A DNA stretch of 28,604 nucleotides from a virus, in the IMG/VR virus record IMGVR_UViG_3300043449_000605, positions 1 through 28,604 of that record; one strand, written 5' to 3'. A program made the translations under genes and the position numbers. Shown here piece by piece: positions 2,431 through 26,289 of the stretch (positions within the stretch are counted from its first letter, which is position 1; every line of letters starts with the position of its first letter). The notes under the pieces are model-generated. The model was not told where the DNA came from. It searched no databases and worked only from the letters and a program-made list of their open reading frames with translations.

Positions 2431-5400
2431 TGGATGAAACTCACCGTTCGAATGTTTCTCGCAGCAGGAGTCTTGTAGTAGGTTTGTGACGAGGAGTTCG
2501 TCAGCAAGTCTACGCGAATCTGATAGGACTTGAATGAACTGCTTGTGGGTGCCACTCGGAAATACACTTCACGGAAATCAATCTCGCTGGTGCTGTTGAA
2601 TGCACCCGTGACCCGTGTCGCGGTCTGCCAAGTCTTGCTGAAAATGTCATCCTCACCCTCCACGCTGAATCGGTAATACACCGCAATCGAACTTCCTGTT
2701 GGAATATTTGAATCAACAAACACCGCCAGTCCGTTTGAAGACAGTTCCTGTGGCAACTCCACAACACGGGACACATAGGTGGATCGGGTCAGTGCAGACG
2801 GTGAGAACAGGGTCATGCTCGCGGCATACAGGGTTTGAGTGTCCACCACTGGCGAAATAGTGGTGTCTGAACCCCGAGTCATGGTGTATCTAAGAGTTGG
2901 GTTGCTGGTGAACAGAGAAGTCAAGTACAACGATTCTCTGTTCAAGAATGTCACAGAATTGTTTTCCGTTCCAATCGTTCTGCTGATGGTGCTTCCTTCA
3001 GGAATTATTTCAGAAGAAGACAGGTTCAGAACCTGTGCGTTCGTGGCAGAGGACACGGTGTAGTTCACCGTTCCATTCGATTGGAACTCACATCGCTTCA
3101 CCTTGAACATGAGATCGGTAACATTGTCTGCCACCGCTGAACCGATTCCTTGTGGTGCAAACAGAGTACCAACAAGTTGATTGTTTCCTGCTCGTCCCGT
3201 AGTGGCATCCTGATTCTGCAAACCATTGATTGCCGAATCAGCCGCATACAGTTCATAGTCATCACTATTTGCCAGCACACAGATTGCGTACTCGCCTGGT
3301 TCAAGGTAAACAGGACTGCTGAACGCAAATTGTGTTTCAGTGGGAGACACGGAGTTTGCGTTCACTGCGCTAGGCAGCAGCGTGACTGTGCTGAATGGCA
3401 GCACAACAGACGGTGACGGATATCCAGATATTGTTGGGCGGATCTGTACCGTGACAGGAAGAGCCGAGTCCTTTTTGCTGAAATACAGGGACACACTGCT
3501 CAAGAATATTCCGTTCGGGTTCGTCTTCTTGTCCACGAAGAATGTCTGCGAAAGCGGATCACTCCAGTGAGTGCTTTCCACCGAATCAATGTCTCGGTTG
3601 AACGGATCTTTGGAGACAGTTTCGCTGCTTGTGAGTTGCCGCCGAAGTTCAGGTGGACGAGTGGAATACGAACCCGATTCTCTTTGTGAAAGCACTCCTG
3701 TGCAGTGATACACTGCTTCTGCTGCTATGGTAGAATTGGCAACAACAGCAGAATCAGAAATACGCACAACTCTGCTACCACTCAAGAAAGTACCAGCACT
3801 GATCCCGAACGATACCGAGCAAGATCCACTAGCGTCTGTGGATATGCCTGTCTTGACCACTTCTCCATCAAAATAGAGAGACAGTCCTGTTACATTTGGC
3901 TTTAATCCTCTGACTGTTGCAGTAATGTTTGTCTGCACAGGAATATACGGAACCACGCTCTGATCCACAACACGAGAGCCAATAGTCTTCTTGATGCGAT
4001 TCTTCAGTCTGCGTGTGCGGATAAAGTTGCTGGTCTTCTGATTCGTAGATTCAATCTTTCTTGACACACCAAACCGAACGCTTCCAGAGTTTACCGATGG
4101 AATGGCAGAATCAGAATTTGCGTGGGGCAGTTCCACGATACGCTTCTGAACATCGTCCTGTTCTTCTTCAATCTGCTCAATACCTGTCCATAGGCTTTCC
4201 CAATCGTTCCACTGCGTACCGAATCCACGGTCGTTGTTGGCGTTGGACGACAGCCAGTTGTCGTTTTCCATCAAGGCATTTGTCTTTACAACAGGACGAT
4301 ATCCCGTGTCGTAGTACGGCTCAACCGAGCGGCTGAGTTTCATAAATCCAAGCCAGTTTACCGTGTTAGACGGATTGATCTTTACGGTCTTGGTGTACTG
4401 ATTGTTGGAGATATAGGTTGCTCCGCTGTAACTCAGCGTAAGCAATCCATCCGAAGACAGTGTTGTACCGTTGTGGGACGGCGCACCGAAACTAATGTTT
4501 TCTGTGCGGAAGAACGGACGCAATTCACCTCGTTCAAAATCAATTGAACATAAGTGCTGATTGCCTGAAACATCTGCAACAGAGTGTCCATAAAATTCAT
4601 CGGACAGTATAGAAGTCTTCAGTGGTTCGGTTGCTGCAACAGCAGTACGCAAAGAACGAGCCTCTATTTCTGATTCAGACAGAGACAGTTTTGCAAATAC
4701 TTCTACTTCGTCCACCCGCTTTTCAATCTTTCCGATGTCTGCCATCGTATACCGTCTACTGTCCACAGGAGTGATGACCACATCACTTGCGTCATGTGTG
4801 TACGCAGGAACAGTCAGAACAGCAATCACAAGTCCTTCTGCTGGATCGGGTGGAGCAACTGGCGACAGATCAGGAGTTCCGCTTACCAAGAAAAACAGCG
4901 GAGATCCGTCTTCGGGATCTGCCTTCACGCACAGTTTGTCGATGCGTGGCAGATAGTGGCTGTAAGACACAGCGGTATTTTCAGCAGAACCAAACTCATA
5001 CAAGCCGTAAGGCTTGATCATCTGCGTGGTACTGTTCGCAAATGTTCGGCGGAAATCCAAGCAATTTGCCAGAGATACTGTCTTTCCTGTTCTTGGGTTC
5101 GTGTAGAGCGGTATCTTGTCGTAAGAGAAATTGGGGTTGTTGCTGTGTACATACGAGTGCTTGCCGATGAAAGGTGCAGAAGCCAGCCCCTGATGATCAA
5201 AATACGAGAAAGAAACAGTTATGGTGCGAACACCAGAAACGGTAAACAGAGCATTGTCTGTTTCAGAGTCTTTTACAAATATTCTGCCGTTTGTATAGTT
5301 TGTTTCTCGCTGACCATCATCTAGTTCAAAATACTGTGTTACATCCGTGGTAACGGCAGGAGATCCGCTGGTGTAAGTAACCGAAGACACCGCATACACA

Positions 5401-22233: not shown

Positions 22234-22814
22234 CAGAACCATCCGAGGAGATGCAGGCTCTCATAGAGGAAACCACGACAGCCCTTGGAGCAACCGATCA
22301 GACCTACATCCGCCTGATCAAACTGTTTCAGAAAGAGGGAAAACTGTCCTTGCCGTCACGGGTATTCTCTGGGCAAATGGTGTTTTTCAAGTACAAGCCT
22401 GTCAGCGAATCTTTCATTTCACGAAATACATACTATGATCTGTATCCGCTGGTACTGATTTGCGATGTCACAAGAGAAGGATTCGAAGGCGTAAACCTAC
22501 ACTATTTGAATCCACAGTACCGAATGTTTCTGTTCGAACAAATAACCAAACGCCTGCCAGTACTGAAATCGGGGGACGAATGGAGAAACAGGCTGATGAT
22601 TGACTACAGCCGCCTGAAGTCGCATAGATCCATGAAGTTCTTTAGAGCGTGCTACAGACGATACTCATGGGACGGAATGAAGCGAAGACCTGTTGTGATG
22701 CCGTATGAACTTTGGGATCAGATGGTTGCTGCCGAAACAAGCAGATTTGTCGGAGCAAGACCCGTAACAGTTTACCGAGACTCGTATCACAAAGTAGTCA
22801 AAAGAGGAAGATGA
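22230..22814 (+). CDS. Conserved-looking phage protein with NLHYL motif, unknown function
   Basis: This gene encodes 194 residues with a good ribosome site (AGGAG, 6 nt before the ATG) and a 4-nt overlap with gp4. Residues about 45-100 have a distinctive order: FSGQMVFFKYKPVSES, YYDLYPLVLICDV, then GFEGVNLHYLNPQYRMFLFE. I associate this G-x-M-x-FF-Y ... D-x-x-PLVL ... G-x-NLHYL layout with a protein widespread in T4-like cyanophages and marine myophages whose function I cannot name. The C-terminal half is basic and Arg/Tyr-rich (FFRACYRRYSWDGMKRRPVV), compatible with nucleic-acid contact. Its neighbours, gp4 and a tail-tube-like protein, suggest a role in virion assembly. Its stop overlaps the next gene's ATGATG. 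Confidence 0.72.
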   Translation: MTEPSEEMQALIEETTTALGATDQTYIRLIKLFQKEGKLSLPSRVFSGQMVFFKYKPVSESFISRNTYYDLYPLVLICDVTREGFEGVNLHYLNPQYRMFLFEQITKRLPVLKSGDEWRNRLMIDYSRLKSHRSMKFFRACYRRYSWDGMKRRPVVMPYELWDQMVAAETSRFVGARPVTVYRDSYHKVVKRGR

Positions 22815-23485
22815 TGGCTAATCTACCGTCCAACATCAACGAAATAGTAACAAACATAACGAACTCTGGACTTGCGTACAGCAACAGGTACGAAGTAGAT
22901 TTTGGATTTCCGATCAGTCACCCATCACGGGACGAAAACGCGAAGCGATCCATGCTTGTTCGCTGCGACTCCATCATAATTCCTGGACGGTCACTGTCAA
23001 CCACTCCGTACAGGTACTATGGTCCTGCTCGGAATATGCCCTATGAACCCATATACAGCGGAGAGATGAACCTATCAATCATACTGTCTGCTGATTTGCG
23101 AGAGCGAATTTTCTTTGAACGCTGGCTAGACTCTATTGTGAATCCAGTGAACTACAAATTTGGGTTCTACGATACCTACATCACAAATGTAGCCATTACA
23201 GTATTGGACAAGACAGACACTCCCGCAGCGCGGTATATTGTAGAGGAAGTATATCCAAAGGCGGTGAGCGATATTCAACTAGGATACGACCGCGACAACG
23301 ACTTTCTGAAAACAGAAGTCACTCTATGCTTCAGAAAGTACTACGCCGAATATTTGGGTTCCGTGCAGCCTCCTCCAATGATTGCTGCTCCCATGCCTGT
23401 TGTTCCCTCAAGTCAACCGCCCCCGCTTCTAGCAAACGACAGTCTTCCAGACCCCGCCCCGCAGTTCTCTCTATTACAAGACTGA
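22814..23485 (+). CDS. gp54: Tail-tube-fold protein, probably gp54-like tail-tube initiator
   Basis: This gene encodes 223 residues from the ATG at 22814. An AGAGGA site 5 nt upstream favours this over the adjacent ATG at 22811. The body (20-185) has the tube fold pattern: YEVDFGFPI, RCDSIIIPGRSLSTTPYRYY, then EMNLSIILSADLRERIFFE, WLDSIVNPVNYKFGFYD, VEEVYPKAVSDIQLGYDRDN and LKTEVTLCFRKYY. T4 gp54 shows the same order (MPENRLSYETDW, WVNSVQDPVTG, CIPISVSAPELSYDGDNQ, FDVTFAYRV). gp19 tail tube has a similar ending, so a tube paralogue is the alternative. The lack of a neighbouring sheath gene and the closeness to gp48, gp26 and gp29 favour gp54. The C-terminal 40 residues are Pro-rich (QPPPMIAAPMPVVPSSQPPP), unlike T4. 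Confidence 0.65.
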   Translation: MANLPSNINEIVTNITNSGLAYSNRYEVDFGFPISHPSRDENAKRSMLVRCDSIIIPGRSLSTTPYRYYGPARNMPYEPIYSGEMNLSIILSADLRERIFFERWLDSIVNPVNYKFGFYDTYITNVAITVLDKTDTPAARYIVEEVYPKAVSDIQLGYDRDNDFLKTEVTLCFRKYYAEYLGSVQPPPMIAAPMPVVPSSQPPPLLANDSLPDPAPQFSLLQD

Positions 23486-23541: not shown

Positions 23542-24252
23542 ATGACCTTATTGAACCTGACTTCTGCTTCGTTGCCACAGTACACAATGACACTGCCAGT
23601 ATCTGGTACGGTATGCAAGTTTAGACCGTTTCTCGTCAAAGAAGAAAAGATCCTGTTGCTGGCACTACAGTCAAAGGATCTGAATCAGATCAATGACTCC
23701 ATGAGAAATGTGATAATGATCTGCACAAACGGAACAATCGACACGAAGAAGTTGTGTTCTGCTGACGCGGAATACGCCTTCTTGCAGATCAGATCAAAGT
23801 CAATCGGTGAAGAAGCAAAACCAGAGATCACTTGCTCCAAGTGTGGCAAGCAGGTTTCTGTGAAGGTCAAATTGGATGAGATCACCGTAAAGAAAGAGAA
23901 GAAAGAGAAGATTGATCCCACGATAAAGATCAACGACAATCTTTCGATTGTGCTGCGTTACCCATCCATTCACGATGTAGACCACTCCAAGAACGAAGTA
24001 GAGATTGCATTCGATCTAGCGAAGCGGTGTATAGAGTCTGTGATCCTTAACGACCAAGTGCATGAAGCCAAAGACATCAACCAAACCGAACTGTCCGAGT
24101 TTGTGGACAACATGATGCCTGATCAGTTTGCAAAAATTATGGACTTCATCAGTAGCGTTCCAGAATTGATCTATCAATTCAAGTATCCATGTCCAGAATG
24201 CAAGGAAACGGTGAATGTGGAACTCAAGAGCGTATCGGATTTTTTTCACTAG
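23542..24252 (+). CDS. gp26: Baseplate hub assembly protein gp26-like (probable tail-assembly chaperone)
   Basis: The zero-frame product has 236 residues. PVSGTVCKFRPFLVKEEKIL, then LLALQSKDL near residues 19-47 is the signature of the T4 gp26 baseplate family (T4 baseplate protein, PF12322 type) as seen in cyanophages. Two CxxC pairs (Cys98/Cys101 in CSKCGK; Cys217/Cys220 in CPECKE) could bind one zinc ion. A basic helix (KKEKKEKID) follows the first pair. The start at 23542 is set by AAAGGA. A CATAAATA element lies 30 nt upstream. The last codons run over seven T residues (24240-24246) just before the TAG, where a -1 frameshift into the gp51-like frame is proposed. The position before the tape-measure gene and this arrangement match lambda G/GT-type chaperones. 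Confidence 0.85.
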   Translation: MTLLNLTSASLPQYTMTLPVSGTVCKFRPFLVKEEKILLLALQSKDLNQINDSMRNVIMICTNGTIDTKKLCSADAEYAFLQIRSKSIGEEAKPEITCSKCGKQVSVKVKLDEITVKKEKKEKIDPTIKINDNLSIVLRYPSIHDVDHSKNEVEIAFDLAKRCIESVILNDQVHEAKDINQTELSEFVDNMMPDQFAKIMDFISSVPELIYQFKYPCPECKETVNVELKSVSDFFH

Positions 24253-24277
24253 CCCTCTGTCATAACGACTTGGGGGC
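24240..24277 (+). other. Candidate programmed -1 ribosomal frameshift site (gp26 to gp51-like)
   Basis: In the gp26 frame the bases 24240-24246 read T TTT TTT, a perfect X-XXY-YYZ slippery heptamer. After a 5-nt spacer (CACTA, containing part of the zero-frame TAG), GCCCTC at 24252-24257 can pair with GGGGGC at 24272-24277: six base pairs including one G-U, with a 14-nt loop. A -1 slip continues as FF-SLALCHNDLGAYYQVNF into the gp51-like frame. The predicted fusion has 297 residues. Heptamer, spacer and stem were read by eye; folding energy was not computed. Confidence 0.65.
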
Positions 24278-24434
24278 ATACTACCAAGTAAATTTCATGC
24301 TCATGCAGCACCACAAGTACTCGCTAGAGGAATTAGAAAACCTAATTCCTTGGGAGCGAGAGGTATACATACAAATGCTGACTGCTCACCTGAAAAAAGA
24401 ACGGGAACGGGTGGGTAAAAACAAGCGGCTGTGA
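24240..24434 (+). CDS. gp51: gp51-like baseplate hub assembly factor, probably made by -1 frameshift from gp26
   Basis: The frame carries LMQHHKYSLEELENLIPWER then EVYIQMLTAHLKKERERVG, which I recognise as the short gp51 hub-assembly protein of T4-like marine phages (PWER-x-x-Y motif). The family-like sequence seems to begin before any good start: HNDLGAYYQVNF precedes the first local ATG (24297), which has no ribosome site. An ATG at 24189 lies inside gp26 and would give an unlikely N-terminus. Entry by frameshift at 24240-24246 would add 62 residues to the first 235 of gp26. An independent short product from 24297 (45 residues) is the alternative. The stop is 31 nt before the tape-measure gene. 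Confidence 0.7.
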   Translation, partial: FFSLALCHNDLGAYYQVNFMLMQHHKYSLEELENLIPWEREVYIQMLTAHLKKERERVGKNKRL

Positions 24435-24465: not shown

Positions 24466-26289
24466 ATGGCTAAAAGGTATTCAGAATCTGACATCAGACG
24501 ACAAATGTCGGCACGGCAAGGAAGAGATGCCCGTGGTCGATATCTTCCGTTAGAGTCTGGACAGAGACTTTCAGATATACGAGCAGCAGCACAAGCAGCG
24601 TCTGCTGCCACGGGTGAGCCACCGCCTATTGGAATTGCTGATGCAGCGGGGCAGTCATCACAGCCAAGTCAACTCACGGTGGCTGCTGCTGTTCTTCTAC
24701 GCGAGGCAAAGGGACTGTCTATTGATGCCGAATTTGCCGAAAGCCAAGAAGCAAAGCGGATCTACGCAAAAATAAAGGTAATCAGAAAACTGGCTGAACG
24801 CTCGGCGGACTCTGCGGCGGTAACAGCAAAACTAGATGAGATCATCAAGCCCGTAGAAGATCAACTTCGCAAGAAGGCGTCTTTCTCTGAATATTTGAAA
24901 GAACAGGTTCAAGACTTCCGAAAGACACTGCCAGAGCGACTGCTGTCAAAGATACCCGTAGTTGGAGGTTTGCTTGGTGGCTTTATGCGTCAACGAAGGG
25001 AAGCCCAAGAGGAAATGGGTGGATACGAGCGTCAGATACTAAGACGCGGAGCAGGAGGCGGTGGATCTCCAATTTCAGGTGTTTTGGGTGGCGGTGGAGA
25101 TGCCTTGCGAAGGCGCGAGCAGGAATTCGAATCATCCAAGTTCCCAACAAAGACCATCGAAAGCATCTACGAAGAAGTTGTGTCTATTCGAAAGATGCTT
25201 GAAAAAACATCAAAGGTCGCTGGCAAGGGCGCAGGCGGAATGCTTGGTTCTCTTATGGATATGTTTGGAGGACGGCGAAGCAGAATTGGACGCCTTTTCA
25301 GAAGAGGCAGAATTTTCGCAAGACGACTCGGAAGAAGAATTGGCAGAGCAGCCCGAGGTTTTGGACGAGGTATTGGTAGGGCTGCATCTGCTGTTGGGCG
25401 CGGAGTGAGAAGAGCAGCATCCGCTGTGGGCAGAGGTGCTTCTGCTGTTGGACGCGGAATAGGAAGAGCAGCATCTGCCGTTGGAAGAGGAGTCGGATCA
25501 GCAGCATCTGCCGTTGGAAGTGCAGCATCTTCTGCCGCAAGCGGAGCAGGAGGATGGATGTCTAGCGCATGGAATTGGACAAAAAATGCAGCCAGTTCCA
25601 TGAATCCCATGAACACAATAAAGGGAGCAGTAAAATCTGGAGCAGGGAAAATTATGAAGGGCGTAGTGTCTCTGCCTGGACTAGGTGCGCTTATCAGTGG
25701 AGCAATCGGTGCGCTTGACATAATGAACATCAAGAACGATGCCACCATGAGTCCAGAAGAAAAGAAAGAGCAAATAGGAAGAACGCTCGTAGGCACTCTC
25801 GGCTCTGCAATCGGATCAGTGATTGGCGGATCAGCAGGAACAGCACTAATTCCTATTCCTGGAATAGGAACAATTGTTGGAGCAATGGGTGGAGCATGGG
25901 TCGGAGAAACACTTGCAGAAATGCTTGCGGATACTGTTGGAGGAAAAGGTATTTACGACTTGGTGTCCTCTATTCCTGGTATCGGTTCATTGATATCAGT
26001 TGACGAACAGACTCTTGGACAGGGAGAAGGAGCAGAAGGGTCAATTGGCTCGCCAGCCACGCCAAACACTTCTGTTGGAGCAATGGCAAATCAGGTGGCA
26101 GCGGAGCAAGATGCGTTCCAAGACGCTACGATGTCTGCCATGAGCGGACCTCCATCCAATCCAACCGTGAACAACTCTAACATTCGGTCGAATGTGACAA
26201 ACAACATCAATAATTTCAATGATGACCTTCGAATCAGAAACAACGAACCCACGATCAAAACGATGCAAGCAGCATCTCATGTGTACTAA
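24466..26289 (+). CDS. gp29: gp29-like tail tape measure / hub protein
   Basis: At 607 residues it is close to T4 gp29 (590), the tail-length determinator. Residues 70-160 and 220-250 are helical and charged (EFAESQEAKRIYAKIKVIRK; IYEEVVSIRKMLEKTSK). Residues about 270-300 are very Arg-rich. Residues about 300-360 repeat GR-G-(I/V)-GRAASAVG. Hydrophobic Gly-rich stretches at about 403-418 and 442-485 (GTLGSAIGSVIGGSAGTALI) could enter the host membrane on injection, as tape measures often do. The C-terminus (NNFNDDLRIRNNEPTIKTMQ) resembles the tails of such proteins in cyanophages. The ATG follows AAAGGGAG. Position after gp26/gp51 supports the call. An internal injected protein is the alternative. 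Confidence 0.7.
   Translation: MAKRYSESDIRRQMSARQGRDARGRYLPLESGQRLSDIRAAAQAASAATGEPPPIGIADAAGQSSQPSQLTVAAAVLLREAKGLSIDAEFAESQEAKRIYAKIKVIRKLAERSADSAAVTAKLDEIIKPVEDQLRKKASFSEYLKEQVQDFRKTLPERLLSKIPVVGGLLGGFMRQRREAQEEMGGYERQILRRGAGGGGSPISGVLGGGGDALRRREQEFESSKFPTKTIESIYEEVVSIRKMLEKTSKVAGKGAGGMLGSLMDMFGGRRSRIGRLFRRGRIFARRLGRRIGRAARGFGRGIGRAASAVGRGVRRAASAVGRGASAVGRGIGRAASAVGRGVGSAASAVGSAASSAASGAGGWMSSAWNWTKNAASSMNPMNTIKGAVKSGAGKIMKGVVSLPGLGALISGAIGALDIMNIKNDATMSPEEKKEQIGRTLVGTLGSAIGSVIGGSAGTALIPIPGIGTIVGAMGGAWVGETLAEMLADTVGGKGIYDLVSSIPGIGSLISVDEQTLGQGEGAEGSIGSPATPNTSVGAMANQVAAEQDAFQDATMSAMSGPPSNPTVNNSNIRSNVTNNINNFNDDLRIRNNEPTIKTMQAASHVY
25330..25545 (+). repeat. Imperfect Gly-Arg-Ala-Ser repeats in the tape measure
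   Basis: The DNA repeats a 30- to 36-base unit around GCAGCATCTGC(T/C)GTTGG, encoding GRAASAVGRG-type units at about residues 295-355: GRAASAVGRG, RRAASAVGRG, ASAVGRG, GRAASAVGRG, GSAASAVG and SAASSAASG. At least four near copies are visible. They are in frame and could change tail length by slippage or recombination. Confidence 0.75.

Follow-up and report, generated by a model that had tools for sequence, protein, structure and literature searches.

A slippery run at the end of a gp26-type gene

How does a phage whose gp26-type gene runs into a string of T's come to encode a protein that corresponds to T4 gp51? The locus lies in the window, a 28,604-nt stretch of viral DNA (IMG/VR record IMGVR_UViG_3300043449_000605). 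The features that bear on the question are:

22748..23485, plus strand: tail tube-type gene upstream (gp19/gp54 type), matching the phrog_45 tail tube profile (E=4.4e-35).
23542..24252, plus strand: gp26-type gene, putative short form of the tail assembly chaperone (TAC-N), 236 aa; PF12322 and phrog_150.
24240..24246, plus strand: slippery heptamer T TTT TTT in the zero-frame phase X XXY YYZ, recognised from the sequence and its in-phase conservation.
24240..24434, plus strand: -1 frame tail (TAC-C, gp51-type C-terminal domain), 64 codons to TGA; phrog_634 and alignment to the T4 gp51 C-terminus.
24250..24252, plus strand: zero-frame stop TAG, one codon past the heptamer, with the same spacing in 91 of 111 loci.
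24252..24277, plus strand: predicted downstream hairpin, arms 24252-24257/24272-24277 and inner stem 24259-24261/24267-24269, from folding and a synonymous-codon control.
24466..26289, plus strand: probable tape measure protein gene, 607 aa, from its position after the tail, a similar long ORF in relatives and weak family matches.

The gp26 protein matches the profiles of PF12322 (E=1.3e-56) and phrog_150 (E=5.5e-58), and its gene ends in TCG GAT TTT TTT CAC TAG. The -1 frame ORF matches phrog_634 (“baseplate hub assembly catalyst”, E=1.6e-26), with an onset within 3 residues of the FF encoded by the site. Fusion of gp26 codons 1-235 to 62 codons of the -1 frame would give a product of 297 aa with the junction SVSDFFSLAL. 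Columns 230-281 of the 282 in the phrog_150 profile also match the -1 frame of the window, implying that phrog_150 already contains fused members. A first-pass annotation of this DNA had placed a zero-frame T TTT TTT at the end of gp26 and predicted products of 236 and 297 aa, and the sequence confirms both. The gp51-like domain that it saw in the -1 frame is borne out by the phrog_634 match but equals only the C-terminal tail of gp51.

The ORF at 24466..26289 is probably the tape measure protein gene. It matches glycine-zipper, tail-fibre and tape-measure profiles weakly and takes no tape measure name from Pfam, and its identity is therefore a matter of position plus weak matches; a long ORF follows within 600 nt in 55 of 66 representatives (loci below 70% identity, which we also used for the codon-usage and RNA tests). 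The earlier proposal of a gp29-like tape measure as the next gene thus agrees with position, length and weak similarity but not with any Pfam name. Among relatives, the ORF after the gp51 tail ranges from 441 to 1111 aa with patchy similarity, as would be expected if these tape measures belong to tails of unequal length, or if distinct genes occupy this position.

The heptamer and the frame relation are conserved

A search with gp26 alone recovered 80 related viral contigs, and all 80 carry the gp51 tail in the -1 frame, preceded by a T-rich slippery site. In the 111 one-gene loci with an intact frame, which have independent metagenomic and isolate origins, the tail is again always in the -1 frame, and an in-phase T TTT TTN is found in every locus at the same position. 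The last base of the heptamer is C in 83 loci, T in 23, A in 4 and G in 1; the run has six T's in most loci and eight in 5. These one-gene loci belong to cyanobacterial, pelagic, rhizobial, Vibrio, Aeromonas, Stenotrophomonas and Desulfovibrio phages. Isolates with the same arrangement include phages of cyanobacteria, Pelagibacter, Methylophilales, Ochrobactrum, Sinorhizobium, Rhizobium, Agrobacterium, Vibrio, Aeromonas, Acidovorax, Stenotrophomonas, Cronobacter and Desulfovibrio, together with Pseudoalteromonas phage XG4.

A few sites end in a base other than C or T. That of RHph_I34 reads TTTTTTG, also the T-rich heptamer of P2 E/E', and Rhizobium phage RHph_I1_18 and phage XG4 carry T TTT TTA, a heptamer of the HIV-1 type. 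The heptamer of lambda G/GT, GGGAAAG, is unlike that of the window. The sole exception to the frame relation is a Stenotrophomonas phage assembly (L103, 3180-3330) that has five T's, with the frames not joined. Since its near-identical twin L102 and the isolate Ps15 have six T's at this place, the missing T is probably a homopolymer sequencing error, a mutant being the alternative.

Signs of selection on the codons of the site

In the 66 representatives (i) the third base preceding the run is always T, and (ii) the first Phe codon is always TTT; under codon usage the chances are 10^-15.5 and 10^-12.2, values that treat the loci as independent and overstate this independence because the loci are related. 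T4-type gp26 mostly keeps the residues EFF but encodes them as GAG TTC TTT, which is not slippery and contains no heptamer; thus the amino acids alone do not force a slippery site. In-phase TTTTTT occurs only 8 times elsewhere in about 44,000 nt of gp26 bodies from the representatives, which, against a fixed position in 111/111 loci, excludes chance.

Conservation switches reading frame exactly at the heptamer. Column by column, BLOSUM scores in the -1 frame are mostly negative upstream, where stops also occur, and mostly positive and stop-free from the heptamer onward; the zero frame shows the reverse. The second Phe codon of the site is TTC in 65% of representatives versus 35% in the background, though TTT would also slip. 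Perhaps this preference keeps the run at six T's, avoiding polymerase slippage or setting the frameshift rate.

RNA signals flank the heptamer

Across the set, a Shine-Dalgarno (SD)-like stretch, GAG GGN, lies about 10-15 nt upstream of the heptamer, with a spacing that resembles that of E. coli dnaX. Pairing of the upstream region to the anti-SD sequence reaches -5.72 kcal/mol versus -4.43 kcal/mol and beats 200 of 200 synonymous randomisations, and Glu at the element is encoded by GAG in 20 of 31 cases versus 28% in the background.

The RNA downstream of the heptamer is more structured than its -1-frame synonymous versions (z=-1.2, versus -0.05 to -0.30 in control windows of gp26). The fold z is below -1.5 in 27 of the 66 representatives and above +1.5 in none; the excess fades by 36 nt, and the hairpin sequences vary between lineages. 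When the same structure was scored against zero-frame gp26 windows the signal was weak, the synonymous-codon control being the informative test.

In the window, the 6-bp GC-rich stem with a 5-nt spacer described by the first-pass annotation is present: GCCCTC (24252-24257) pairs with GGGGGC (24272-24277), including one G-U pair, 5 nt after the heptamer. The stem belongs to the predicted minimum-energy fold and is thermodynamically plausible. The 60-nt fold has an energy of -14.8 kcal/mol (z=-1.7 against dinucleotide shuffles), and the 45-nt fold has z=-2.5 against -1-frame synonymous codons. This hairpin is strong and the SD-like element is weak (-3.4 kcal/mol); thus, the window would depend on its heptamer and hairpin. 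Across loci, we found no trade-off among the SD-like element, the hairpin and a run of seven T's (Spearman -0.03, p=0.8).

T4 encodes the two forms as two genes

Where does T4 stand? Its genes 26 (minus strand) and 51 (plus strand) are adjacent and divergent, so no frameshift can join them. Both T4 proteins belong to PF12322, and gp51 alone adds the phrog_634 tail. The window fusion aligns with T4 gp51 nearly end to end (residues 13-244, E=2.7e-10), and the -1 tail aligns with the C-terminus of gp51. Judged from these alignments, T4 gp26 is the short form and T4 gp51 is the whole long form, in line with the earlier equation of the pair with lambda G and GT. The T4 proteins are thus homologous over their full length to the predicted short and long products of the window, but their genes are separate and divergent, without slippery site or frameshift. 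The idea of a T4-type frameshift pair is supported for one-gene T4-like relatives and fails for T4 itself.

Counts of PF12322 copies in 37 genomes follow the same division: 27 have one copy, and the other 10, T4-type without exception, encode gp26 and gp51 separately. Extra matches in two T4-type genomes stem from genes split at a contig end or interrupted by a break in the frame. Each genome examined has either two genes without the heptamer or one gene with it. The window does not fit the T4 two-gene arrangement, as the heptamer is present in its gp26; although the record is a 28.6-kb fragment, only one PF12322 copy occurs in each of its one-gene relatives. In one T4-type genome (L123, IMGVR_UViG_2974754850_000001), the gp51 gene near 2501-3246 appears split, matching PF12322 over 1-126 and 134-219 in different frames, possibly through sequencing error or decay.

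In a tree of 39 proteins, the proteins of the frameshift type, gp26 and gp51 each form one supported group, although the tree has long branches and no fixed root. The three groups fit a single duplication. We lean towards the view that two selected RNA signals drive frameshifting in T4-like phages: an SD element resembling that of dnaX, some 10 nt upstream of the heptamer and weak or lacking in the lineage of the window, and a downstream hairpin whose sequence varies between lineages. On the same view, T4 genes 26 and 51 stem from a single duplication, with two fixed genes taking the place of recoding. The set amounts to a natural experiment, the same pair of products being obtained by recoding in some phages and by gene duplication in others.

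Is the gp51 tail reached by frameshifting ribosomes?

Alternatively, the tail could be a separate small gene, with its own start or translated by coupling after gp26 termination, as GenBank records annotate it in many isolates. The window does offer ATGs in the -1 frame, at 24189 and 24198 upstream of the site and at 57 and 63 nt past the heptamer start, but the two upstream ATGs are neither conserved nor preceded by a ribosome-binding site, and the anti-SD pairing of the starts available to the tail is +0.6 or worse versus -3.8 for gp26. The first-pass claim that the tail has no usable upstream start must be softened for these ATGs, yet in 104 of the 111 loci there is no ATG, GTG or TTG between the last upstream -1-frame stop and the heptamer. 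In 29 loci this stop is no more than 3 nt from the heptamer, and in the closest relatives of the window (L002-L005) it directly precedes it. No conserved start with a ribosome site was found for the tail in any relative examined. Annotated gp51 genes in isolates are only 30-62 aa long and mostly start within the conserved domain, conservation begins at FF and not at a Met, and T4 gp51 is the full fusion. We consider a separate gene very improbable.

RNA polymerase slippage on the T run, which would add a base and leave a minority of transcripts encoding the fusion, suits a homopolymer site with seven T's such as that of the window. However, the run has only six T's in 48 of the 66 representatives, and six bases are fewer than a bacterial polymerase usually slips on. 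The preference for TTC shortens the run, its codon phase is strict, and the SD-like element (10 nt) and the hairpins are signals that act on ribosomes; we give this explanation slightly less credence still. Lastly, a miscounted T in the assembly would turn the locus into one plain fused gene. A single-base indel does affect the same run in L103, but the same frame relation recurs through 111 loci of independent metagenomic and isolate origin, most of them reading TTTTTTC, and a miscount is scarcely credible.

We conclude, with a probability of roughly 0.9 on the sequence evidence, that one gene yields two tail assembly chaperone forms through a -1 frameshift at T TTT TTT. In loci such as L083, L084, L086, L089, L091 and L099, annotated gp51 genes are 30-47 aa long and start within the conserved domain, or are missing (ACP17, S13 and VH7D). 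These short or missing annotations arise because the frameshift is not annotated. None of the isolate regions examined has the long product annotated, and many cyanophage and related records have a truncated or missing gp51.

A model for the two forms, and its precedents

What is the mechanism of expression? The anatomy, its conservation, the RNA signals and the one-gene/two-gene split are observed here, whereas the slippage itself, its rate and the chaperone role are inferred. Most ribosomes would terminate at the TAG of gp26, and their product would be the short form of 236 aa. On T TTT TTT, with tRNA-Phe occupying both the P and the A site, a minority would shift back by one base ahead of the hairpin (24252-24277) and extend the chain by 62 residues to the 297-aa long form, the counterpart of T4 gp51. 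As in lambda G/GT, many copies of the short form may coat the neighbouring tape measure protein and the tail of the long form may recruit tail tube subunits, with neither form kept in the virion. T4 and its close relatives would obtain the same pair from genes 26 and 51, and the simplest origin of this two-gene state would be a duplication after which one copy held the fusion permanently in frame.

The abstract of a 2022 study taken up below reportedly describes frameshifting as conserved in several T4-like groups, with T4's group using genes 26 and 51. A 2016 review (Atkins, PMC5009743) describes G-T frameshifting as widely conserved in long-tailed phages “except T4”, an exception that the gp26/gp51 story explains. 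Lambda gpG/gpGT resembles the pair proposed for the window in its short form, its -1 extended form and a slippery site close to where the short gene ends (PMC5009743). P2 has a contractile tail, and its E/E' pair, which corresponds to these genes, also uses a -1 frameshift (PMC5009743); the P2 proteins are probably unrelated to those of the window, or related too distantly to be recognised. Lambda differs in tail type, and its proteins share no demonstrated sequence similarity with those of the window.

The first-pass statement that no report exists for T4-type gp26/gp51 does not hold: Vladimirov, Gautam & Davidson (2022, Virology 566:9-15, pmid 34826709) identified the tail assembly chaperone genes of T4-like phages, as related in PMC10885494 and PMC12846349. 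The latter cites their work for poly-T frameshift signals in T4-like TAC-N genes, and the former for T4-like phages with one short and one long fused gene, separate from each other. As far as these citing passages go, our main claim, a chaperone frameshift in T4-like phages, is already published; the SD-like and hairpin stimulators and the environmental breadth may be new. The phage of the window was probably not included in that study, and it shares with the T4-like gp26/gp51 chaperones the PF12322 family and the phrog_634 tail. The old “hub assembly catalyst” gp51 would thereby gain a concrete role, as the 2022 paper appears to have argued.

Predicted structures

Sequence searches for solved structures returned nothing real. 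An AlphaFold2 model of gp26 (pLDDT 92.9) gave no significant Foldseek match in the PDB, to a solved tail assembly chaperone or to any other entry; the most probable among the 50 matches listed were 3fgx and the HK97 tail assembly chaperone 2ob9, whose likeness (E>3, not significant) is a hint only. Among predicted viral proteins, the model matches the gp26 types of many myoviruses. The model of a T4-type gp51 follows the helix and strand order of gp26 and adds C-terminal helices.
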